From a virus: DNA of 35,555 nt. A model generated the notes under the pieces. The model ran no database searches. It saw only the letters and a program-made list of their open reading frames with translations, and had not been told where the DNA came from. Of the stretch, positions 1-35,555 are shown one piece after another (the stretch's first letter is position 1; each line of letters opens with the position of its first letter). The translations under genes were made by a program, and so were the position numbers. The stretch is taken from IMG/VR virus record IMGVR_UViG_3300020060_000158, positions 1 through 35,555 of that record, one strand, 5' to 3'.

Positions 1-555
1 TTATGTGTATCTGGCGTAGGCTTTCTGCATACTTAAATCGTATGGCTCACGACCATATTTAGCCGCTAAGGCTTTATATCCCGAACCGTTGTAATAGACT
101 GCCACCAAATGCCAGTTCTTTGCTCTCAGGGCTTTTAATAAAGCGGGCGTACCTTTAATGAACTTAGCAATCCCCATAACCTGTTGATAATCGCCCTTTT
201 TAAAATCGTCGACCATTTCGTCAACTGTCTTATAGCCTAATAAAGCATAGTGAAAGCCCATAATTTGCCCGAGTCCCCAACTGGTAGATTTCATTGCCGC
301 ATTTTTATTTAAGTGAAATGCTTCACTAAAGGCCGCGTATTCTTTTACCTGACCTTCAACTTTGTTTACGCTCCATTGTCCAGACGGGGCATAAGGCGCA
401 TTCTTTTTAAACCACGAAGGTTCAAACTGAATGACGATTCGGCCATTAATAAAACCTAAACCACCACTTTCGACCGATATGAAGGCCATTAAAGAAGCGT
501 AATCAACGCCTATGGACCTGGCTATTTCCGTTATTTGATCTTTAGATAGATTCAT
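1..555 (-). CDS. Endolysin, N-acetylmuramidase family (DUF3380-like)
   Basis: Predicted phage endolysin that cleaves the glycan strand of peptidoglycan to release virions. The N-terminal part carries the family signature VESGGLGF (about residues 28-35) with Glu29 as the likely catalytic acid, followed by IQFEPSWF, SWGLGQIMGF and a C-terminal VAVYYNGSGY block. The length (184 aa) matches a single catalytic domain without a separate cell-wall-binding domain or signal peptide, so release would depend on the adjacent holin. I chose the ATG at 555; a TTG at 573 would add six residues and lengthen the overlap with the holin gene, whose stop is at 542. It is the last gene of the leftward late operon in this window. 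Family assignment is from motif recognition, not a search. Confidence 0.85.
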   Translation of the reverse strand: MNLSKDQITEIARSIGVDYASLMAFISVESGGLGFINGRIVIQFEPSWFKKNAPYAPSGQWSVNKVEGQVKEYAAFSEAFHLNKNAAMKSTSWGLGQIMGFHYALLGYKTVDEMVDDFKKGDYQQVMGIAKFIKGTPALLKALRAKNWHLVAVYYNGSGYKALAAKYGREPYDLSMQKAYARYT

Positions 556-772
556 TTGGTTTGCTTTTATCAATTACACTATCAATTGTTTGGGACTTCC
601 TGCGGCTCCCTGCACTGCTTCCAAAGAAGTAAAACACAACAGCTAACAGCACGTCTTTACATGTGGCTGTTGTGCCTGCATCATGTGAACCAAAGAAAAA
701 ATAGCTAAATATGCCAACGGTCAGAACTAAACTGAATACGTGTGAAAATTGAATGTTTTTTAACTCTTTCAT
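542..772 (-). CDS. Putative holin (small two-helix membrane protein)
   Basis: A 76-aa protein with two hydrophobic segments, about residues 10-27 and 38-52, and a charged C-terminal tail that begins GSSAGSRRK. This size and topology fit a class II-type phage holin that permeabilises the inner membrane so the cytoplasmic endolysin can reach the wall. The gene overlaps the endolysin start by 14 nt, which is the usual holin-endolysin arrangement. The ending FYFFGSSAGS followed by Arg/Lys resembles a motif common in small phage holin-like proteins, but there is no catalytic signature. Function is inferred from topology and position. Confidence 0.65.
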   Translation of the reverse strand: MKELKNIQFSHVFSLVLTVGIFSYFFFGSHDAGTTATCKDVLLAVVFYFFGSSAGSRRKSQTIDSVIDKSKPNESI

Positions 773-9442: not shown

Positions 9443-10043
9443 TTGGTTTTCTCCATTTTAAGGGGTAAATAATTGTTTTCAACAAGCCATTGAAACTGCC
9501 TGTACTTTTCTGCCCAAACATCATCCGGCAAATCTTCAGGGAAGGGTATATGCATGAAATGGCTGAGTTGGGCATTGATCCTCCTAACCTGATCATACAC
9601 GTCCGTCTCGTCCCCGTCCTTAATCGGCGGGTATTCATCGAGCAGTTCTTTGATTTCAAAGGCAACGCCATCGGGTGACTCTATGTCGTCATCACCCGAT
9701 GACGTTAAATGTTTTTTAGGGTAGCCTGCCTTACTTTAATCATTTTAGCTATTGCATCTACAGCGGCCATAAATAGGTCATCATCTTCCATAACCTGATC
9801 TTTGTGTGACAGCAAGCAGGCTTTAACTAAAGTTTCGTCTGCTTTCTTGGGCGAATTTTTTTCCCATTTGCTATATTCGCTCATGACCGTTCGGCATGGT
9901 CTTCGAACCAGTACAGTCAAAATATTGCCGTAATCATCCATTTCTAAGTCAGCAAATTTAACTGCGCCTTCTTTCGGCCATTTGGTTTTCGCAGCATCAA
10001 CCATGTCTTGTGTGATGCCTTCCGGTAATTTTTCTTTGTTCAT
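9439..10043 (-). CDS. Tail assembly chaperone, long form made by -1 frameshift
   Basis: Ribosomes reading the 112-aa zero-frame gene can slip -1 on A AAA AAC (9717-9711) and continue from CAT at 9711 to the TGA at 9441-9439. The result is a 201-aa protein: the first 111 residues plus 90 more beginning HLTSSGDDDIESPDGVAFEI and containing VYDQVRRINAQLSHF and DDVWAEKYRQFQWLVENN. The downstream frame is open from a TAA near 9740 but has no in-frame ATG, GTG or TTG, so it cannot be translated alone. Tail assembly chaperones of the lambda G/GT type, including the Mu equivalents, are known to be made this way and act on the tape measure during tail assembly. The clear coding character of the extension and the stem-loop make this strong. 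Confidence 0.85.
9665..9705 (-). promoter_or_regulatory. Frameshift-stimulating stem-loop
   Basis: Five nucleotides downstream of the heptamer the minus strand folds into ACGTCATCGGGTGA / TCACCCGATGGCGT, a 14-bp stem with a single U-G pair and a 13-nt loop. The spacing and stability fit a stimulator of -1 frameshifting. The stem includes the last base of the zero-frame stop and lies inside the coding sequence of the extension. Confidence 0.8.
9705..10043 (-). CDS. Tail assembly chaperone, short form
   Basis: Zero-frame product of 112 aa, placed directly after the tail tube gene, the standard position of the G-like chaperone. It is helical with a central LTVLVRRPCRTVMSEY motif, and ends TLKNI at the slippery site. 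It would be the abundant product; the extended 201-aa form shares its first 111 residues. In lambda the two forms bind tube protein and tape measure in a fixed ratio, which is set by the slip frequency; the same is inferred here. Start ATG at 10043, 32 nt after the tube stop. Confidence 0.8.
   Translation of the reverse strand: MNKEKLPEGITQDMVDAAKTKWPKEGAVKFADLEMDDYGNILTVLVRRPCRTVMSEYSKWEKNSPKKADETLVKACLLSHKDQVMEDDDLFMAAVDAIAKMIKVRQATLKNI
9711..9717 (-). promoter_or_regulatory. Slippery heptamer A AAA AAC
   Basis: Reading the minus strand, the zero-frame codons CTA AAA AAC ATT TAA contain the heptamer A AAA AAC, one of the most efficient -1 slip sequences in bacteria, six bases before the zero-frame stop. 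It leads to the open -1 frame that encodes the chaperone extension. Confidence 0.88.
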
Positions 10044-19822: not shown

Positions 19823-19906
19823 AATTCCTGCTTTTTGGGATGTGGAAGATGGGAACCAGTCCGATCAGCCACAGTACAAATATACAAATTAATTGATCAA
19901 TACAAC

Positions 19907-21742
19907 ATGGGTGCAGGAACAGCAAAATTAGAACTCATCTTAGAACTCAGGAATCGTATCAATTCCGGTCTGAGTAGCGCAAGAACACAGCTTAACAGCG
20001 GCATCAGCAGTATGAAAGCCAAGATGGCCGAACTTAAAGGCGGCGCGTCTGAACTGTTTAACGGCATAGCAAGTCAAATACCCGGTGTCGGTGGCATGAT
20101 CGGAAGTCTTGCTAACCCGTATGCGGCGGCAGCGGCCGGCGTACTTGCCCTCGGCGCGGCTTATTTATCAGCCGGTCAAATGGCTGTACAATGGCAGACG
20201 GGCATGGCCAAGGTCAACGTAACCGCGCAGCTTAACCGGCAGAATTTGAAACTACTTAGTGATCAGGTCTTGGATATCGGGGGCCGAAATGCAACACCAT
20301 TGGAAGAAATACCCGATTCGTTTAACAAGGTCGTTTCGGCGGGTCTGAATGCCAAGGATGCGCTCGAGGCTTTTGATCCGATCCTAAAAGGGGCGAAAGC
20401 GGGTTTTACTGATTTGAACACGGTTGCAGCGGCCACCGTATCGACAATGAACAGTACTGGGCTAAAAGATGCCTCGCAGGTGCTTGATGTGCTTTTCGCT
20501 ACCATGAACAAGGGTAACGCTGAATTTGCAGATATTGCTAACTACCTGCCTAAGATCATACCGATGGCAGAAAAGGCGGGGCAAAGTTTCAAGGATACTG
20601 CCGGTGCCTTCGCCTACTTTACCGCGCAGGGCTTCAAATCTGAACAGACAGCGACTTTACTGGAGAACACTTTTAAGGCTATATCTGATCCAAGGATCAC
20701 AGATGGCTTTAAAAAGGTCGGGGTGAACATATACGATTCTGCCGGTAAAGCAAAACCGATGCTTAAAATATTGGATGATCTGCGTGGCAGACTTAGTGGG
20801 CTGTCAAGTCAGGCAAAAAACAAGATATTCCAGACGATCGGGGCAGATGGTGAAACGGTAACGGCGATCGGTGCGATGTTAAAAGATTACGACAAGCTTG
20901 CCGATATCATCAAGTTTACCAACGATTCGCAAGGGCAGCTTAATGAGGCCATGAAAAACGCGGAAACACCGATGGACGCATGGGCGATTATCTTTAACCA
21001 GGTTAAACAGGCCATGATAGAAATTGGTCAAACGAGCCTTCCGATTATTAAGGCCATTGGCACTTATATTCTTGAAACTATCCAGTACTGGAAAGACCTT
21101 TACGCCAATTCTATAGTATTCAGGGATTCCCTTTCAGCGATAGGCGTATATTTTCAATACCTGTGGGCAATAAGTACAATTGGCATCCGGTTTCTGATCA
21201 ACGGGTTCAAAATGATCGGCGATGTGATTAACCGGGTTACTACCTCAATTTTCGGATCGGGTGATGGTTTTGAGAAATGGTACATAAAAGTAAAGCCTTA
21301 CGTGCTTTGGGTTTTCCAGTACATCAAAGCCATCGGGGAAATGATCTATAACATCCAGACCCTAGATTTCTCAGGCGCAATGGATGCCGCAAAAAGCATT
21401 TCAAACGGCAAATCAATAGAAGTAATCCGCAACGAGGTAAATGCCGAGTACAAGGCGCAAAAAGAGGCCAAAAAGGAGGTGCTCGCGCCGATAGGTGGCG
21501 TGAAACCTGATGGCACCGGTGGCAAGACTAAAAACCTGCCAGTAAGCAGCAGCGCAAGCGGAACTACCGGCACCGCCCAACAGGTCAAAAACATCACGAT
21601 CAACATGGATGCAATGGTTAAAGGAGTTAACCTGAGCGCGACAGGCACTGACTTTAAAGGCATGGGCAAAAAGGAATTTGAAGAATATATGCAGAATATG
21701 TTCAAACGGATGATGGGCAATCTGGAAACTTCATACGGGTAG
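19907..21742 (+). CDS. Tail tape measure protein
   Basis: 611 aa from the ATG at 19907 (MGAGTAKLELILELRNRINS). This is a tape measure protein that sets tail length and passes into the cell envelope on infection. It has a long helical N terminus with Ala/Gly repeats, a hydrophobic segment AAAAAGVLALGAAYLSA, a 'phage tail tape measure' core (ADIANYLPKIIPMAEKAGQS, DTAGAFAYFTAQGFKSEQTA), further hydrophobic helices about residues 380-440, and a C-terminal tail domain. An in-frame ATG at 19835 adds 24 residues with non-conserved-looking content. It stands on the opposite strand from the sheath, tube and baseplate genes, an unusual separation in tail gene order. Confidence 0.85.
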   Translation: MGAGTAKLELILELRNRINSGLSSARTQLNSGISSMKAKMAELKGGASELFNGIASQIPGVGGMIGSLANPYAAAAAGVLALGAAYLSAGQMAVQWQTGMAKVNVTAQLNRQNLKLLSDQVLDIGGRNATPLEEIPDSFNKVVSAGLNAKDALEAFDPILKGAKAGFTDLNTVAAATVSTMNSTGLKDASQVLDVLFATMNKGNAEFADIANYLPKIIPMAEKAGQSFKDTAGAFAYFTAQGFKSEQTATLLENTFKAISDPRITDGFKKVGVNIYDSAGKAKPMLKILDDLRGRLSGLSSQAKNKIFQTIGADGETVTAIGAMLKDYDKLADIIKFTNDSQGQLNEAMKNAETPMDAWAIIFNQVKQAMIEIGQTSLPIIKAIGTYILETIQYWKDLYANSIVFRDSLSAIGVYFQYLWAISTIGIRFLINGFKMIGDVINRVTTSIFGSGDGFEKWYIKVKPYVLWVFQYIKAIGEMIYNIQTLDFSGAMDAAKSISNGKSIEVIRNEVNAEYKAQKEAKKEVLAPIGGVKPDGTGGKTKNLPVSSSASGTTGTAQQVKNITINMDAMVKGVNLSATGTDFKGMGKKEFEEYMQNMFKRMMGNLETSYG

Positions 21743-25691: not shown

Positions 25692-25997
25692 TTAGTGGTA
25701 AGGTTGTTCTTTTTGTCTTAAATATTCTTGATGTCTTTCGTATAGATCATCACTCATTTGCTGTTTTAAAAGGTCAGTTGCCGCTTTGAGCCTTACTTCA
25801 AAGGGCGCTACCAGTTCAATAAATAGCTCCTTTTCCAGTTCCTCGCCGAAACTTGGAATGTCGTTGCAAAGTTCCTGATCCACACCGGTGCTGATGCTGT
25901 AAAAGCCATTTTTTTCAGTGTATATGATCATTCCGAATTGCTCATTGAAAGCGAAGTATTGCCGCTTATCAGGGTTTTTATAGTATTTAAATTTCAT
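25692..25997 (-). CDS. Small early protein, unknown
   Basis: 101-aa protein from the ATG at 25997 (KFKYYKNPDKRQYFAFNEQ). A start 90 nt upstream at 26087 lies entirely inside the DUF1643 gene and is not preferred. N-terminal beta-like segment (FGMIIYTEKNGFYSISTG), then an acidic helix (GEELEKELFIELVAPFEVRL) and a polar tail. No family recognised. Confidence 0.55.
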   Translation of the reverse strand: MKFKYYKNPDKRQYFAFNEQFGMIIYTEKNGFYSISTGVDQELCNDIPSFGEELEKELFIELVAPFEVRLKAATDLLKQQMSDDLYERHQEYLRQKEQPYH

Positions 25998-26523
25998 ATA
26001 ATATTGGTTTAAGAGATTTAAGCAGATATAAGGGGTGCTTGGGGATACCGTCAATACTAAGTTCAAGGCAGTGGACAGGCTTTCCAAATGACCTGATGGC
26101 TTGCAACTGCTTTTCTGTTGAGAGCTTCTTTATAATCGGATAATTGCCCCAAGCGCATATTATTAGATCAGCTTTCCTGACCGCGGCTATAATGTGGCAG
26201 ACATTATCACGGCCAATTGGATCGTCTGTTACAAATAGTCCTTCAGGGTTGCTATCCATCCACCCGAAAAGATTGACAACATTCAACTCGCCATATCCCC
26301 AATCATTTGCGTAAGTGATGCACCTTATGATTGTAGGATCATTTTCCCACGCATCTGCGGTACTTGGATTTAGCATAATAAAAAGTAAAGTTGGTTTATT
26401 GCTGTCCCATCGCCTTGTTAACGAATACCTGTATCTTCCGCAAAGCGAAATCACTGCTGTCGATTTGGTTTCAAACTGAGAGAACAATGATTTATAATTA
26501 ATTTTAAGGTCTGATATTTTCAT
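25987..26523 (-). CDS. DUF1643 family protein
   Basis: 178-aa protein with the family signature LLFIMLNPSTADAWENDPTI, RCITYANDWGYGELNVVNLF, DDPIGRDNVCHIIAAVRKAD, ICAWGN and the closing GIPKHPLYLLKS. The fold is related to Rossmann-like nucleotide-binding folds; the biochemical role is unproven, and it often lies near DNA-modification and nucleotide genes in phages. ATG 26523 chosen; a TTG at 26547 would overlap the MTase. It follows the cytosine methyltransferase after 7 nt. Confidence 0.8.
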   Translation of the reverse strand: MKISDLKINYKSLFSQFETKSTAVISLCGRYRYSLTRRWDSNKPTLLFIMLNPSTADAWENDPTIIRCITYANDWGYGELNVVNLFGWMDSNPEGLFVTDDPIGRDNVCHIIAAVRKADLIICAWGNYPIIKKLSTEKQLQAIRSFGKPVHCLELSIDGIPKHPLYLLKSLKPILYEI

Positions 26524-26530
26524 AATTTGA

Positions 26531-27919
26531 TTATAAAAAAGGTTCAATAATTCTTTCCTGTATTGCTTCCATTACCGGCGGCGTGACCGCGTTGCCGCAT
26601 TGTTTAACCTGCTGTTTCTGAGTTCCAAGCACGATATAATCTTTATCGAATGCCATTCCTAACTTAACCTCGTGTGCTTTTAATGTCCGGTAGTAACAAT
26701 CCTCAACTTCCGGCGCTTTGTCAATAAATAAACCATGACGGTGAACGGTAGTAAAAGAGCCGGTTGGATCAACAATTGCACTCGATACGTCAGAACCTCC
26801 ATTGTAGTAAGCAATAAATGACTTGTAATTGTCTGCTGTTAAAATACCATGATGATGGGCACCGGCGGTAATTGTGGATATTGGCTTATCGAAAACCGGC
26901 AAACACCCGCCTTTACTTGTAAGCTCTAAAATCATCGGTGTAAGCAAGCTCATTGTCTGCCGTGTACATTGGGTTTGAAATGGATCAACAGCCCGACCGA
27001 CATTGTTGCCGTTTGAACTGTTCGCCGTTTGCAGTATTAGCGGATATTGGTATGTAGGCTGGCCATCAACCCAAAACTTTTCACGGCCTTTTTTAACCCT
27101 TCTCAGGGTGTTTTCTGACAATTTAATATCTCCTATACGTCTGCCTTTTATAGACCAGTCGACACAGTTAAATGCAGCGTGGTGATATGGTTCTACAACC
27201 GTACCGTCAACCGGACAGCGGTATAGATATCCCGTGTTATATTTCCAAGACTTCTGCCCGGGCTTAAACCATTGGAAAGCCTCGATATCCTTTTTACATT
27301 TTGGGCAATGTGCTTTCGGTGTAAATTCTAAATTCGGGGCTTTGTTCCCTTTCTTCCAGAAAACAACATACATTCTATCCCTGCTTTGTGGGCATGGCGG
27401 GAAATGCATACTATTCAGGAAAATGCACTTGTGACTATATCCTAAATTATGCATTGCAATTAACCAAGTGTCAAAAAGCCGCCAGTTACGTGCCTGAACT
27501 ACATTTTCGACAGTGATGCCGTTGTAATTGTGGTATTCTGCAAACCTTACAACATCCCACATCGTCGCTCGGCTTCTTTCTTCTGAGGCGTCCAGTTTAA
27601 TGCCGGTAAATATATCAAACTGATTAGTCGGCTTTTTCTTGCCGTTTCCGTACCCTTGTTCAACACATTCCGGTGATGTGATTAGCATGTCAGTTGTAGG
27701 GTAGCGCCTAGGATCACATGCAGAAATATCAGTACATGCATGTAATGTGTTTGGAAAGTTTGTATTGTGCGTTTCACAAGCTAAAGGCCAGTGATTCATA
27801 GCCAATGTGATTTCCAGACCCCCGCCAAGCTTTTCAGAAAGTCTACGGACACCCTGACTGCTGCCGCCTGATCCGCAAAATTGATCTGTGTAGGTTAAGT
27901 AAGATTTCTTTTTAGGCAT
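26531..27919 (-). CDS. C5 cytosine DNA methyltransferase
   Basis: 462-aa m5C methyltransferase. Seen: motif I DQFCGSGGSSQG (residues 12-23), motif IV as TSPECVEQG (Cys85 as catalytic nucleophile, with Glu in place of the usual Pro), motif VI TVENV (Glu138), motif VIII QSRDR (178-182), and motif X CGNAVTPP (441-448). In the target recognition part there is a Cys-rich element (HCPKCKK at 204-210 and RCPVDG at 234-239), perhaps a zinc ribbon. It methylates cytosine, probably to protect phage DNA from host restriction. No restriction enzyme or MTase partner is beside it. ATG 27919 is chosen over a TTG at 27925. Confidence 0.85.
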   Translation of the reverse strand: MPKKKSYLTYTDQFCGSGGSSQGVRRLSEKLGGGLEITLAMNHWPLACETHNTNFPNTLHACTDISACDPRRYPTTDMLITSPECVEQGYGNGKKKPTNQFDIFTGIKLDASEERSRATMWDVVRFAEYHNYNGITVENVVQARNWRLFDTWLIAMHNLGYSHKCIFLNSMHFPPCPQSRDRMYVVFWKKGNKAPNLEFTPKAHCPKCKKDIEAFQWFKPGQKSWKYNTGYLYRCPVDGTVVEPYHHAAFNCVDWSIKGRRIGDIKLSENTLRRVKKGREKFWVDGQPTYQYPLILQTANSSNGNNVGRAVDPFQTQCTRQTMSLLTPMILELTSKGGCLPVFDKPISTITAGAHHHGILTADNYKSFIAYYNGGSDVSSAIVDPTGSFTTVHRHGLFIDKAPEVEDCYYRTLKAHEVKLGMAFDKDYIVLGTQKQQVKQCGNAVTPPVMEAIQERIIEPFL

Positions 27920-28031
27920 GATCAACGTAGAATGTATACATGAGTAGTAAACCGCCTATTGCACCCATGATCATTAAGAAGATCACTATTGCATCATACT
28001 TTTTGGGGATTTGAGGTAGAGATTTGTTCAT
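27912..28031 (-). CDS. Micro-membrane protein, 39 aa
   Basis: Short ORF starting ATG AAC AAA TCT with the product MNKSLPQIPKKYDAIVIFLM, continuing IMGAIGGLLLMYTFYVDHA. It has one strong hydrophobic helix at about residues 14-34. Its start overlaps the stop of the preceding micro-gene in an ATGA, and its stop overlaps the start of the methyltransferase. No family is recognised; translation is supported by tight overlaps on both sides and by membrane character. Confidence 0.6.
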   Translation of the reverse strand: MNKSLPQIPKKYDAIVIFLMIMGAIGGLLLMYTFYVDHA

Positions 28032-28907: not shown

Positions 28908-29558
28908 CTATCCCTCAACTTCTATATCCACAAAATTTAGTTGTACAGCTTGGTACTCTCCTTTACCATCCCTAACCCAGATTTGGTGATAAGCCTTGGT
29001 GTACATCTTGCTAATGCTTTTATCAATATGTACCATAGCCTTTTCCCAGTGTTTGTTTTTAGATCGGCTAGCGTGCTTTCTAAGTGTTAAGATTTTTTTA
29101 TAATCTAGTTTGCCGCCACTTGTCTCGAATGCCGCTTGTACCAGATCAGTGATAAAAGTGTCCTGAGAATCAATAGTGTATTGTGCAAACATTTCGTCCA
29201 ATTCGGCTTTAGCCAGGTTAATGAAGTTTTCATCAAGGCTGATCCGCTCACCAATTTTAACCACCAGTTTGATCGATTTATCAAAGTTGTACAACGTGAC
29301 ATTTCCAACGTTCTTCCCGATTTTGCCATCGTTTTCGATTAGGAAATCTTGGTATAGTTCTTCGGCAGTCTTTTCTAAAGCCGATTTAAATGCGACTAAA
29401 TTGGCGTTTAAAGCAATGGCTTTTTTAGCCTGATCCGCTAAGGATCGTTCACGTTTGCGTTCTGAAGGCGTGATCCTTTTTACTGGTATTCTCATACCTG
29501 ACTCGTCTGCCCACATTATGTCTGTCGGTTTCTGCTGATTGAATGTTAGTGCTCTCAT
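28908..29558 (-). CDS. DUF3164 family protein
   Basis: 216-aa protein of the DUF3164 type, a standard component of the early region of Mu-like phages and related prophages. The conserved section is VTLYNFDKSIKLVVKIGERI, SLDENFINLAKAELDEMFA, then GGKLDYKKILTLRKHA and a C-terminal beta hairpin (YHQIWVRDGKGEYQAVQLNF). The function is not established. Leading helix RERSLADQAKKAIALNAN. Starts after a micro-membrane gene. Confidence 0.8.
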   Translation of the reverse strand: MRALTFNQQKPTDIMWADESGMRIPVKRITPSERKRERSLADQAKKAIALNANLVAFKSALEKTAEELYQDFLIENDGKIGKNVGNVTLYNFDKSIKLVVKIGERISLDENFINLAKAELDEMFAQYTIDSQDTFITDLVQAAFETSGGKLDYKKILTLRKHASRSKNKHWEKAMVHIDKSISKMYTKAYHQIWVRDGKGEYQAVQLNFVDIEVEG

Positions 29559-30908: not shown

Positions 30909-31535
30909 TTAGTCTATTGCTTCTTGTCCCCAATATTTTGCAGCACCTTCAATCCAATTTGTGTAGTACCCTTTTTTACCTATGTAGCGTCCCATTGATA
31001 TAGCCCTGTGACCCTCTACCCATATTTTTAAATCAGCATCATACTTTATCGCTTTTGCCGGTCTTCCTGATGGGGCCTTCCCATCAGCCTGGCTAACTAT
31101 TATTATCAGCTTGTTCGGATACCTTTTTTTAAATGCTTCATATTTTTTATAAGTCCAATTCGTGTACTGCCAACTGTCTATCACTACGATCTTTGCACTA
31201 CGTTCCTTGTCAAGCCTTTCCTCTAAATCTTCCATGCTTTCCTGAACTAGCAGAACTTTTCCACTCACTTCGTTCATTCCTGCTTTTCTAAATGCGCCCT
31301 GCATCGTCTTGCTTCTTCCTTCCTCCAAGCTGTTTATTACCACCTTTCTGTTGAAGGTTGTTAGGTATTTGGTTAGTTTTAGATAAAAGCTAGTTTTACC
31401 ATTTCCACTATTTCCCCAAATGAACCAGACCCCCGATATTTCCGGCTTATCAAAGGCCTCGAACCAATCATCGGTAAAGTCAAACACCTCGAACTCAATT
31501 GAATCAAGATCGCGCGGTGTGTAACCTCTTTTCAT
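30909..31535 (-). CDS. RecA/RadA-like P-loop ATPase
   Basis: 208-aa single-domain ATPase. Walker A GNSGNGKTS (residues 41-49), Walker B IVVID (116-120), and a late IIIVSQADGKAPSGRPAKAI and YDADLKIWVEG, resembling the KIK-x-DADV region of RadA/Sak4-like proteins, which act on single-stranded DNA in recombination. It overlaps MuB by 4 nt. It may help recombination or replication after transposition. The Sak4 relation is by motif impression. Confidence 0.7.
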   Translation of the reverse strand: MKRGYTPRDLDSIEFEVFDFTDDWFEAFDKPEISGVWFIWGNSGNGKTSFYLKLTKYLTTFNRKVVINSLEEGRSKTMQGAFRKAGMNEVSGKVLLVQESMEDLEERLDKERSAKIVVIDSWQYTNWTYKKYEAFKKRYPNKLIIIVSQADGKAPSGRPAKAIKYDADLKIWVEGHRAISMGRYIGKKGYYTNWIEGAAKYWGQEAID

Positions 31536-32464
31536 AGGCCAAGAACCATTTTTACAAACTCCAATGTCAATGGTTGACCGAGCCTTTTAACTTCCCTCAG
31601 GCATGGGTTCAGCACGTCTGTTAACTCACCGTAATTTGCACAATTAGCCTGTAGCCACTTTTTAAGTTCGGCATCAACGCCATCTAAAAACAGGGTAAAC
31701 CTTGTGTCAACTTCGGGTATGTAGTGGGTTTTAAACTTGATACGGCGCATTAGCTGAGAAACACCGGCTTTTTTTCTTCTGATCAGTCTTGTCATGTTTT
31801 CGGTCAGCTCTTCGGTGCCGAGCATAACCAATGGGCAGATATTTAAAAGCAAATCATACAATTCCTTGAAAGCGCACAAAGCGGTTTGCTTCATATACTC
31901 TGATTCATCAAAAACCAACATCGGTTTAAGACCTTTTTCATTGCGTCTCTTTAACTCACGCCAGATCAGGCCAATTTTGACAGATTTAGAACCTTTCCAG
32001 TAGTCTAGTTTCAATTCATCTGCGATCTTTTGAAGCAAGTCTCCAAGGTTATCAGATGCGCCAACCTTAACGCTGAATACCTCGGCCGGAAATTTCTTTT
32101 TGAAGGCATCTAGTGCAAAGGTTTTTCCGGCACCAGTTTGACCGATCAACACGCCCGCTTCTGAATGATCCATGCAGTCTTTTAACTTGGATATGATAAA
32201 GGTTAACTGTGGCGTTGCTTTGGTGGTGATCAGCTTTTCTTCCAGTTCAAACCCGATAAGGTTAGCGATTCTGCTAAAATACATGTCGCTGATCCCGATC
32301 TCCTTTGCACCCATAGTCACAGTGGATTTACCTTTTCTCATTGGGATCAGATACGACGCATTGACATCGGCTTTCAGTGAAATATCAGCCTGAGAGAAGT
32401 TGTGAAGCTCCATGAATGTTTCTAGGGCTTCGATTATTCCGGTTTTTTGGTCTTGTGTAAGCAT
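31532..32464 (-). CDS. MuB-type transposition ATPase
   Basis: 310-aa target-selection ATPase of Mu-type transposition. The N-terminal 60 residues form an HTH (ADISLKADVNASYLIPMRKG), then an AAA+ domain with Walker A GQTGAGKT (108-115), Walker B LVFDES (183-188, Asp186/Glu187), LVMLGTEELTENM (sensor) and an arginine-rich segment RLIRRKKAG. The C-terminal section (NPCLREVKRLGQPLTLEFVK) matches the conserved end of this family. It binds DNA, delivers target to the transposase and gives immunity. Overlaps the RecA-like gene by 4 nt and starts 4 nt after transposase part 2. Confidence 0.9.
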   Translation of the reverse strand: MLTQDQKTGIIEALETFMELHNFSQADISLKADVNASYLIPMRKGKSTVTMGAKEIGISDMYFSRIANLIGFELEEKLITTKATPQLTFIISKLKDCMDHSEAGVLIGQTGAGKTFALDAFKKKFPAEVFSVKVGASDNLGDLLQKIADELKLDYWKGSKSVKIGLIWRELKRRNEKGLKPMLVFDESEYMKQTALCAFKELYDLLLNICPLVMLGTEELTENMTRLIRRKKAGVSQLMRRIKFKTHYIPEVDTRFTLFLDGVDAELKKWLQANCANYGELTDVLNPCLREVKRLGQPLTLEFVKMVLGL

Positions 32465-32468
32465 GGTG

Positions 32469-33644
32469 TTAAATAAAATCGTTAATGTCTATTTTGCTGT
32501 TGATGTAGTCTTGTTGTGTTTGCAGTTTGCTTTTTTCAGCGATACGCTCGTCACGTCTTGTGTGCTTCGCTTCCAATACCTTAACTGATTGCTGAATGCG
32601 GGCGGCATTTCTATTGTCTTTGTGCTGACCTTCGCTATCAACGATCAGTAGTTTTCCGAGGGTTTCTTCTATCCGAGGGTTACGAAGCATCAGACCGTTC
32701 AATGCATCGAAATCGCTTTGTTGAACTTGCAGGATGTCGTCGATCAGTGTTCTGTTGTGTTGGGTAATTCGTGCGAGTTCAGGAGCGTCACCGGCTGTCC
32801 TTTCAGCGAGTGCCATTGGTTGCACATACTTGTCGGTAAGCATGAACTTTAATGATCCGTCCGTACTGACAGCTAAAGCCTGTGACATATCTGCGGGATC
32901 GTATTTTATGATCCAGTCTTCATTCCTGTGCATCCTGAATTGTGGATCGAAGCAATCGAAAGTAAATTTCTGCTTGTTAATTTGCAGTATGACACCCGGA
33001 CCGTTCAGCCGGTTTGTGTCGCCGGAAGTTTCACCAAGGTGCGACAGGTATTCCATGTGCGACCAGGTTAACTTTTTGTCGTCCGAAAGAAGTGCATATG
33101 CTTCGACATATGCCGATTTCTTAGATGCCCGTTCCGCTTCGATCATCTTTACGATCTGGTCAACACAACCTTGTTCATCGGGGAAAGTGTGACGAATCTT
33201 ATTGCTGTATTCTTCATTCGGCTGATTCTCTTTTCTTGCCTTCATACCGAATCCAGACCAATTAGGCTGCAACTGGCAGTAGGTTTTATTGAGGTGCTTG
33301 AAATAAGGCTCAATAACTTTGGCTTTCGCATTCTTTACACGGGCGGGGGTGTATCGCTCAGACAATGCCTCGTAAAACGGCGTTAAGGTCTTCTTGTTGT
33401 AATTATCTGTTTGCAGTTGGTACACATGGTGCTTTGAACCGAACAGTTCCTCTGTGTGTGTTATCGCGTTTCTAAACGCTTGCCGGATCAGCGCCGGTGT
33501 CTCATGAGTACCGATTGCATAGCCAACAGGGTATTTGTTGCATGGATCAAGAACGACCACCATGCTTAGGCGGTGGTGATATTCGGTTACGTTACGGATG
33601 TTGCCTTCCCTGTCTTTGCGCTCAACCGTTTTTTGGTACATCAA
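32469..33644 (-). pseudogene. MuA-type transposase, C-terminal part (catalytic D2 and E)
   Basis: Second piece of the transposase, read in the same frame as the N-terminal piece after an in-frame TAA. It carries MVVVLDPCNKYPVGYAIGTH, the second catalytic Asp in YQLQTDNYNKK (about Asp80) and Glu in AKVIEPYFKHLNKTYCQLQP (about Glu112), then NWSGFGMKARK, SNKIRHTFPDEQG and a long C-terminal region with helical ending. Possible re-initiation at TTG 33644 or ATG 33641, both right after the stop, would give a fragment without the first catalytic Asp. Marked as part of a broken gene; readthrough or sequencing error are alternatives. Confidence 0.8.
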
Positions 33645-33647
33645 TTA
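33645..33647 (-). other. In-frame ochre codon in transposase
   Basis: Minus-strand reading GAT GTA TAA TTG ATG TAC shows TAA in the continuous reading frame of the transposase; both flanking ORFs are in this frame, so there is no indel. A single G-to-T change in GAA (Glu) would make it; CAA or AAA are other possible parents. Confidence 0.85.
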
Positions 33648-34550
33648 TACATCCCAACCATCAGCGGTCCAGTAAAGCAATGGCGCAGAAGGCGCACGTC
33701 TTTTAACCTGCATAGCGTGGTTGTTGTCATGGTTTCCTTTACCGCGCGATCCTGCGTCAGTATAGATTTGCCATTCGTCTCGTTTGTTGGCGACAGTGCC
33801 TTTGGTTATTTTCTTCCAACCGGCTACCTCGGCAGTCATGTTGTACAAATTCATTACCTGAACATCATCGAAGTTCCTACCCATTGCCATGATCCGGCGC
33901 AATGCCCCTTCCTGCTCGCTTTCAACCACCTTAGCGGCATTATCGTTACAAAGCTTTCCGCTGATTAGCGAAACATAACCGAGTTGCTTGTACTTGCTTA
34001 TTTTGCCTCTTAGTGCACGATCCCCCGGCGGGAGCTTCCAACCCCATTTAGCTTGAAGTGTTGCCAGTACATCAGTAAGATTTTTGAGTGATCCTGTTTG
34101 TTTAGCTGACCCACCAAGCGCAGACCGCCATGCTTTTGCATCGCTTTGCAGTTTGATTATGGCGTTTAATACTACGGCGGTAGAAGTGTATTCCCTGATG
34201 GTGTTTTGTTTCAGGTGTTCGCCATTTGGTAATGTATAAGTTTCAAAGAAACTTAGTGCTTTATAATCGTGCTTTAAAAGGGCTTTAATAGGTTGTTGCT
34301 GCGCGGTCTTTACCACATCTTTAAACTTGATGGCAACTGACCTTTTTACCTCCATTGGAAGCAATTCGAAATCATAAAGGGCTTCCGTTCCCCTGCAACC
34401 TGGCCTTACTGTTTTTAACTTTCCTGAGTTTTTAAAATTCTGGTAATCATACTGTGATATGAAAGCGTCGTCGCCCACAGTGTTCGGCTGTACGCTCTTA
34501 TTAACTAATTCGCTGTACGAGATACAAAGAGTGTTGTTATAAAATTCCAT
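33645..34550 (-). pseudogene. MuA-type transposase, N-terminal part (ends after catalytic D1)
   Basis: 301-aa product of the first half of the transposase. The N-terminal DNA-binding region (residues about 1-230) contains VMNLYNMTAEVAGWKKITKG and TVANKRDEW. The last residues are LLYWTADGWDV, where Asp297 corresponds to the first Asp of the DDE triad. The gene then hits TAA, followed in the same frame by Leu-Met-Tyr-Gln-Lys-Thr. In related enzymes the segment after DGWD runs on directly (remembered pattern DGWDVEL-YQKT). The two halves together give about 693 residues, close to MuA (663). Starts 2 nt after the Ner-like stop. Confidence 0.85.
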
Positions 34551-34552
34551 AT

Positions 34553-34774
34553 TTAGTTTGATGATTTTGGTTCAGTGGTAGGGGTAGCTAATTCAGCTAG
34601 TAGTTTTGGAACGATGTTGGTGCCTTTGTACTTTCCATTGATGGTATCACTAAGTACTTTTCTGCTGATTTCAATTGCGGTAGCAATTTCCTGATGTGTC
34701 CGTTTGTCTTTAAATACTTCTAACCTCAAGTACAGATTTTCAGGATATTTAATTTCTTTCTTTTTGCTTTGCAT
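34553..34774 (-). CDS. Ner/Cro-like HTH regulator
   Basis: 73-aa from ATG 34774. It has an HTH in HQEIATAIEISRKVLSDTIN preceded by LEVFKDKRT. This small protein is at the Ner position of Mu-like phages, first in the early operon and divergent from the repressor; Ner represses early and repressor promoters. Starts further upstream (34816) would place the N terminus inside operator repeats and are less likely. Confidence 0.75.
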   Translation of the reverse strand: MQSKKKEIKYPENLYLRLEVFKDKRTHQEIATAIEISRKVLSDTINGKYKGTNIVPKLLAELATPTTEPKSSN

Positions 34775-34781
34775 ATTTATA

Positions 34782-34789
34782 TACATTTG
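34782..34789 (+). promoter_or_regulatory. Repressor promoter -7 element candidate
   Basis: TACATTTG (TAnnTTTG) oriented toward the repressor gene, about 70 nt before its ATG. The leader it would give contains the operator repeats. No clean -33 element is visible. Confidence 0.35.
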
Positions 34790-34870
34790 TGAATACTTAC
34801 GCAAATATATACGCAAAGTGAGTACAAATGCAATAGCTCTCTAAAGAAAAATACGCACAATGAGTACAGA
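34786..34870. repeat. Operator repeat cluster between repressor and Ner
   Basis: TACGCAAAGTGAGTACAAA (34810-34828) and TACGCACAATGAGTACAGA (34852-34870) are direct 19-bp repeats, 16 of 19 matching, spaced 42 bp (four turns). A third, weaker copy (GTGAATAC, 34789-34796) lies left. The right repeat covers the repressor start codon, so repressor binding there would also control its own gene. Confidence 0.6.
34802..34834 (-). promoter_or_regulatory. Early leftward promoter candidate
   Basis: Minus-strand TATATTTG (34809-34802) matches TAnnTTTG, with ATTG (34834-34831) 21 nt upstream as a partial -33 element. An operator repeat at 34810-34828 lies between the two elements, so repressor binding would block transcription of the early operon. 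Confidence 0.5.
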
Positions 34871-35555
34871 AAACAGCAAAGTGTTGATATTGAACGAGAT
34901 AAAATCTTATTACAAATTTAAAAGTGATGTAGATTTTTCCCGTTTCCTAAGTATTGCACCAACCACGCTCTCAAGCTGGTACAAAAGAAACACTATGGAC
35001 TACGATTTAATATACTCGAAATGCGTAGACATAAACGCAGAATTTATATTGAGTGGAAAGGGAGAAGTTAAAAAGCTGGCACTCTCGACAAAAACTACTA
35101 ACGATTTCTCAGGACCTTCTGATAAAAAACATAACCTGCAAAAAATACCATTGTATGATCTGGAAGCCGCTGCCGGTCTTGTAAGTATCTTCCAAAGTAG
35201 CAAGCAAAACATTATCGACTTTATTACTATTCCAAATATGCCAAAGTGTGATGGTGCTATCTCTGTGACAGGGGACAGCATGTATCCATTATTGAAAAGT
35301 GGCGATATAGTCTTGTATAAAATTCTTAGAGACCTTTTACATGGGATTTTCTTTGGTGAAATGTATCTGTTAAGTTTGGATGTTGATGACGAAGAAATGA
35401 TCACTGTTAAGTTTGTTCAGAGATCAGAGCTAGGAACTGACTATGTAAAGTTAGTTAGCGAGAATCGACACCATTCACCGAAAGATGTACCAATTAAGAT
35501 GATCAGGGCGATGGCATTAGTCAAAGCAAGTATCCGCATAAACAGTATGAACTAG
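34860..35555 (+). CDS. CI/LexA-type phage repressor with S24 peptidase domain
   Basis: 231-aa repressor. Residues 1-65 are a CI-like HTH (VDFSRFLSIAPTTLSSWYKR). Residues about 95-231 are a LexA/S24 autocleavage domain with the Ala105-Gly106 cleavage site in LYDLEAAAGL, Ser140 in TGDSMYPLLKSGD and Lys184 in ITVKFV. It would maintain lysogeny by binding the operators upstream, and self-cleave when RecA is activated. Start ATG 34860 lies in an operator repeat. Stop TAG is at the window edge. Confidence 0.85.
   Translation: MSTENSKVLILNEIKSYYKFKSDVDFSRFLSIAPTTLSSWYKRNTMDYDLIYSKCVDINAEFILSGKGEVKKLALSTKTTNDFSGPSDKKHNLQKIPLYDLEAAAGLVSIFQSSKQNIIDFITIPNMPKCDGAISVTGDSMYPLLKSGDIVLYKILRDLLHGIFFGEMYLLSLDVDDEEMITVKFVQRSELGTDYVKLVSENRHHSPKDVPIKMIRAMALVKASIRINSMN

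Follow-up and report, generated by a model that had tools for sequence, protein, structure and literature searches.

MuA, the transposase of phage Mu (PDB 4fcy, 1bco/1bcm), carries a DDE triad on an RNase H-like core. In an insertion study of MuA (PMC3362531), the triad is given as D269, D336 and E392, the regions around residues 280-290 and 350-360 are insertion-tolerant, and no secondary-structure element of subdomain II-alpha accepted pentapeptide insertions. Replicative transposition has been demonstrated for the hankyphage (PMC12135933). The transposase gene described here lies in the window (the whole 35,555-base virus record IMGVR_UViG_3300020060_000158) and is predicted to share the triad and the core with MuA; unlike MuA, it is interrupted by a stop codon between the first (D1) and the second (D2) catalytic aspartate. 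An open-access literature search, covering mostly titles and the beginnings of abstracts, returned no paper on a stop or a split between D1 and D2 of a MuA-type transposase. The interruption is probably a very recent nonsense substitution at an invariant glutamate codon, codon 302, in the MuA-type transposase of a Mu-like Bacteroidota provirus.

The window is organized as a Mu-like phage. As in phage Mu, a MuB ATPase gene is found directly downstream of the transposase gene and a CI-type repressor gene is divergent from the early operon (Table 1); Mu-type head genes are also present. The rest of the window encodes terminase, portal, head protease, major head protein, tail sheath, tape measure, baseplate hub, Mu Gp36 and muramidase, and this structural set (tail sheath, Mu Gp36, terminase, portal and others) points to a Mu-like contractile phage. 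The tape-measure gene (19835-21742) shares the plus strand with the terminase and portal genes, and the minus strand carries those for tail sheath and baseplate. For a Mu-like phage, such an order, with the two groups on opposite strands, is unusual. In the early region, a C-5 cytosine DNA methylase gene (26531-27925, minus strand) adjoins a DUF1643 gene (25987-26547, minus strand). An A AAA AAC heptamer stands in register at 9711-9717 (minus strand), just before the stop of the open reading frame at 9705-10043, and the -1 frame past it is open for 90 further codons; the arrangement resembles the site of programmed -1 frameshifting in the gene of a phage tail-assembly chaperone, with the heptamer itself being no more frequent in the window than expected by chance (19 found, 18.7 expected).

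The record begins and ends exactly at the stop codons of its outer genes, namely the muramidase gene (1-573, minus strand, its stop being the first bases) and the repressor gene (34860-35555, plus strand). The record of one of the closest relatives (L101, 35,569 bases) likewise starts on the stop codon of its repressor gene. These ends suggest that both records represent proviruses trimmed out of longer contigs along gene boundaries, and the true phage ends are probably missing from the window.

Table 1. Features of the interrupted transposase gene and of the surrounding early region (window coordinates).
Feature	Position	Strand	Basis
N-terminal piece (301 aa) of MuA-like transposase; helical domains predicted at the N-terminus, and start of the core with D1 (D297)	33648-34550	-	phrog_310 match, structure model
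In-frame TAA, codon 302; Glu in all relatives examined	33645-33647	-	reading frame, alignments
ATG, codon 304, one codon past the stop; possible restart codon	33639-33641	-	sequence, relatives
C-terminal piece of the transposase frame; D2 (D382), E (E414) and C-terminal domains; ends with TAA at 32471-32469	32469-33644	-	phrog_310 match, structure model
Transposition ATPase of MuB type, uninterrupted frame, 4 bases past the stop of the transposase frame	31532-32464	-	AAA_22 9.7e-15; phrog_296 7e-26
ATPase, open frame	30909-31535	-	phrog_6891
DUF3164 protein, open frame	28908-29558	-	family match
Small early gene upstream, 87 aa with a TTG start; weakly matches a family of transcriptional repressors	34553-34816	-	phrog_1468 3.6e-05
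CI/S24-type repressor, transcribed away from the early operon; the last three bases of the record form its stop codon	34860-35555	+	Peptidase_S24 5.3e-11; Phage_CI_repr 4.2e-05

The transposase frame runs on the minus strand from the ATG at 34550 to its own terminal TAA, with a single interruption at codon 302 (GCT GAT GGT TGG GAT GTA TAA TTG ATG TAC CAA). The N-terminal piece ends in TADGWDV, and the frame past the stop comprises 391 codons. The original prediction described an in-frame TAA without any indel, placed after the first catalytic aspartate, and this description holds: the frame is the same on either side of the TAA, and the two pieces hit a single family, phrog_310 ('transposase', profile length 696), the N-terminal piece at profile positions 1-284 (5.1e-14) and the C-terminal piece at the adjoining positions 298-563 (1.6e-14). 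The uninterrupted frame of MuA and of the phrog_310 transposase is thus broken here at a single codon. The Pfam search gave no match for either piece, and when a second transposase copy was sought within the window, this gene was the one match.

Residues D297, D382 and E414 are invariant in the alignment of relatives and, as judged from this conservation and from the structure model, are predicted to form the DDE triad. D297 is located five codons before the stop (four residues lie between), and D382 and E414 belong to the C-terminal piece; the stop thus separates D1 from D2 and E, as had been proposed. The model of the read-through protein is of moderate quality (mean pLDDT 77, pTM 0.45). It shows a long strand at residues 293-312, which holds both D297 and residue 302, followed by a strand at 318-335, so that in the model the stop is located in strand beta-1 of the predicted RNase H-fold core and not in a loop. 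The best fold matches of the model include TnsB of CRISPR-associated transposons and Tn7 (4.2e-13 and 5.3e-13) and the Mu transpososome 4fcy (E 1.8e-11), which together with the conserved residues argue for a DDE triad on an RNase H-like core. The assignment to the Mu-type transposases is supported by the phrog_310 match over both pieces and by the fold match to the Mu transpososome, at an identity to MuA of only 11% in the structural alignment. A designed protein (8uzp), returned by a sequence-profile search of solved structures, is a weak match (E 0.0074) and was taken as chance.

The relatives were collected by MuB-guided and transposase-profile-guided scans and from two phage records; two profile-guided scans each contributed their 80 best relatives, out of 141 and 208, a selection in which badly broken copies are under-sampled. 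Among the 179 loci, 178 had a transposase match, all covering residue 302 and one being the window's own locus. Removal of 17 rows whose surrounding DNA was identical left 160 non-redundant relatives. Codon 302, which sits in the most conserved stretch of the transposase, encodes glutamate in every one of them (GAA in 94, GAG in 66), and a separate alignment likewise gave Glu302 in 161 of 161 distinct relatives. No stop was found in the core of any of the 160; the three other stop symbols in the alignments of relatives all lie at the C-terminal end (query positions 675, 681 and 683). Alignment with related Mu-like transposases, the comparison suggested with the original prediction, therefore leaves the window as the sole carrier of the stop. 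The closest relatives among the best-scoring ones kept, L101 (IMGVR_UViG_3300031133_000414) and L102 (IMGVR_UViG_3300023171_000041), are 66% and 62% identical to the window transposase over all 693 positions and, unlike it, have a glutamate codon at 302 and no stop. The same difference is seen with the Elizabethkingia phage TCUEAP3 (OK632026.1), whose transposase is 50.5% identical to the C-terminal piece and has no stop at the corresponding position; its gene order, MuA-MuB-ATPase with DUF3164, is similar. The hankyphages (Bacteroides phage p00) are more distant MuA-like relatives and matched only the N-terminal piece.

When 3 kb were compared with 50,697 phage records by distant blastn, no near-identical sister phage was found. 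A probe of 27 bases spanning the stop, in which the variable base was unspecified, matched no other IMG/VR record in a searched set that may omit very near ones, and single-protein scans with the two pieces against viral and genome contigs gave no match.

In respect to age, the gene carries no trace of decay other than the stop. At 54 alignment columns that are at least 97% conserved (8 before codon 302 and 45 after it), the window departs at codon 302 only. Its terminal branch (0.19) is not longer than those of L101 (0.20) and L102 (0.27). Tajima-type relative-rate counts of the window against L101, with four outgroups including L021, show no acceleration: the private changes in the N-terminal piece are 8 against 21 (outgroup L021), 7 against 21, 7 against 15 and 8 against 18, and those in the C-terminal piece are about equal, with 31 against 33 (L021), 35 against 31, 32 against 35 and 31 against 32. 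About 4.8% of random substitutions in the transposase gene (297 of 6228) create a stop, so that long neutral decay would have left more stops or indels. Either the gene was fully constrained until very shortly before sampling, or the base is wrong. The single departing column, the ordinary branch length and the even rates all bear out the recent event that had been suggested, and the early operon otherwise looks intact, as stated then, with the MuB, ATPase and DUF3164 genes being open frames with family matches.

Broken copies are found elsewhere in the transposase family. The base rate was taken from 395 genomes drawn evenly from the phylum to which the L021 host belongs (profile match at E <= 1e-20), in which none of the eight matching copies, four of them partial profile matches only, has an in-frame stop. 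One of the eight, a distant relative in a bacterial genome (L186, 571-2412, minus strand), is frameshifted just past the DG of the first catalytic aspartate, at about the same place as the stop in the window, and again further on. Since such copies exist, a recent knock-out is an ordinary event, and the lesion looks ordinary in kind, with no new mechanism. A stop or a frameshift is likewise a decay step in disrupted transposases of prophages and insertion sequences, for example in Sodalis glossinidius, whose pseudogenes (PMC3091646) mostly carry multiple frameshifts and premature stops, in contrast to the one lesion of the window.

With a recent nonsense mutation, the conserved glutamate codon would have become TAA by one substitution, and translation would yield an N-terminal fragment of 301 residues that has the end-binding region and D1 but lacks D2 and E. 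The provirus could then transpose only with transposase supplied by another phage. We infer that the base is genuine and not a consensus error and that the product is inactive, and hence that the prophage is fixed; the disabled transposition and fixed prophage of the original prediction are consistent with the data.

The main rival to the recent mutation is an error in the base. The TAA may come from a consensus or sequencing error, or from a minor strain variant in the assembly, the phage population itself having an uninterrupted transposase; we consider this possible, and clearly the less likely of the two. The phage is represented by a single assembled record, the TAA is one base from the conserved codon, and the lack of further decay anywhere in the gene is equally expected of an error. 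On a single record, a real mutation and a base error are indistinguishable. Against an error, the record shows no visible tendency to errors, its large genes nearby being uninterrupted and matching known families, and disrupted copies do occur in the wider family (L186, one of eight in the 395-genome draw).

A working enzyme made of two halves is far less probable. Translation would have to stop at the TAA and restart at the nearby ATG (or TTG), TAATTGATG, giving a DDE transposase split in the middle of strand beta-1 of the RNase H fold, D1 being carried by the first chain and D2 and E by the second, and the two fragments would have to reassemble into an active transpososome. A start codon is indeed available one codon past the stop and could allow a second half, and closely spaced or overlapping genes are common in the window. 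An ATG follows within the next two codons for just 4.6% of the codons in the transposase gene, which is a weak coincidence. The split is found in no relative, and in the model the cut lies inside the core strand 293-312 rather than in a loop or at a domain border. It also removes the invariant Glu302, and the secondary-structure elements of subdomain II-alpha of MuA refuse insertions (PMC3362531). Trans-complementation by two half-proteins, raised in the original prediction, is therefore unlikely. The ATG was also considered as an adaptive restart codon. This idea is weakened by the methionine found at residue 304 in 14 of the 160 uninterrupted relatives, which makes an ATG at this place an allowed natural state that need not be an adaptation.

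Readthrough of the TAA, or a changed code in which it is read as an amino acid to give the full-length enzyme, is highly improbable. The frame and its conservation do continue perfectly past the stop. Against this, TAA is an ordinary stop in the window: it ends 31 of 48 other open reading frames (hand-chosen from the lists of frames, some with uncertain start codons), and also the transposase frame itself. The relatives have a sense codon at the position (stop in 0 of 160), which speaks against a conserved readthrough element. Least credible is a selected stop, by which the N-terminal fragment with its predicted DNA-binding part would act as a dominant-negative inhibitor silencing its own or incoming related phages: truncated transposases are known as inhibitors for some insertion sequences, and the fragment is predicted to hold everything before the core, but the same truncation was never seen independently among the relatives examined and there is no sign of selection or age.

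If the nonsense mutation is real, the window would capture the first step by which a transposable prophage dies or is domesticated, in which one lesion in the catalytic core precedes any other decay. It would then be wrong to annotate such a record as that of an intact, mobile phage.
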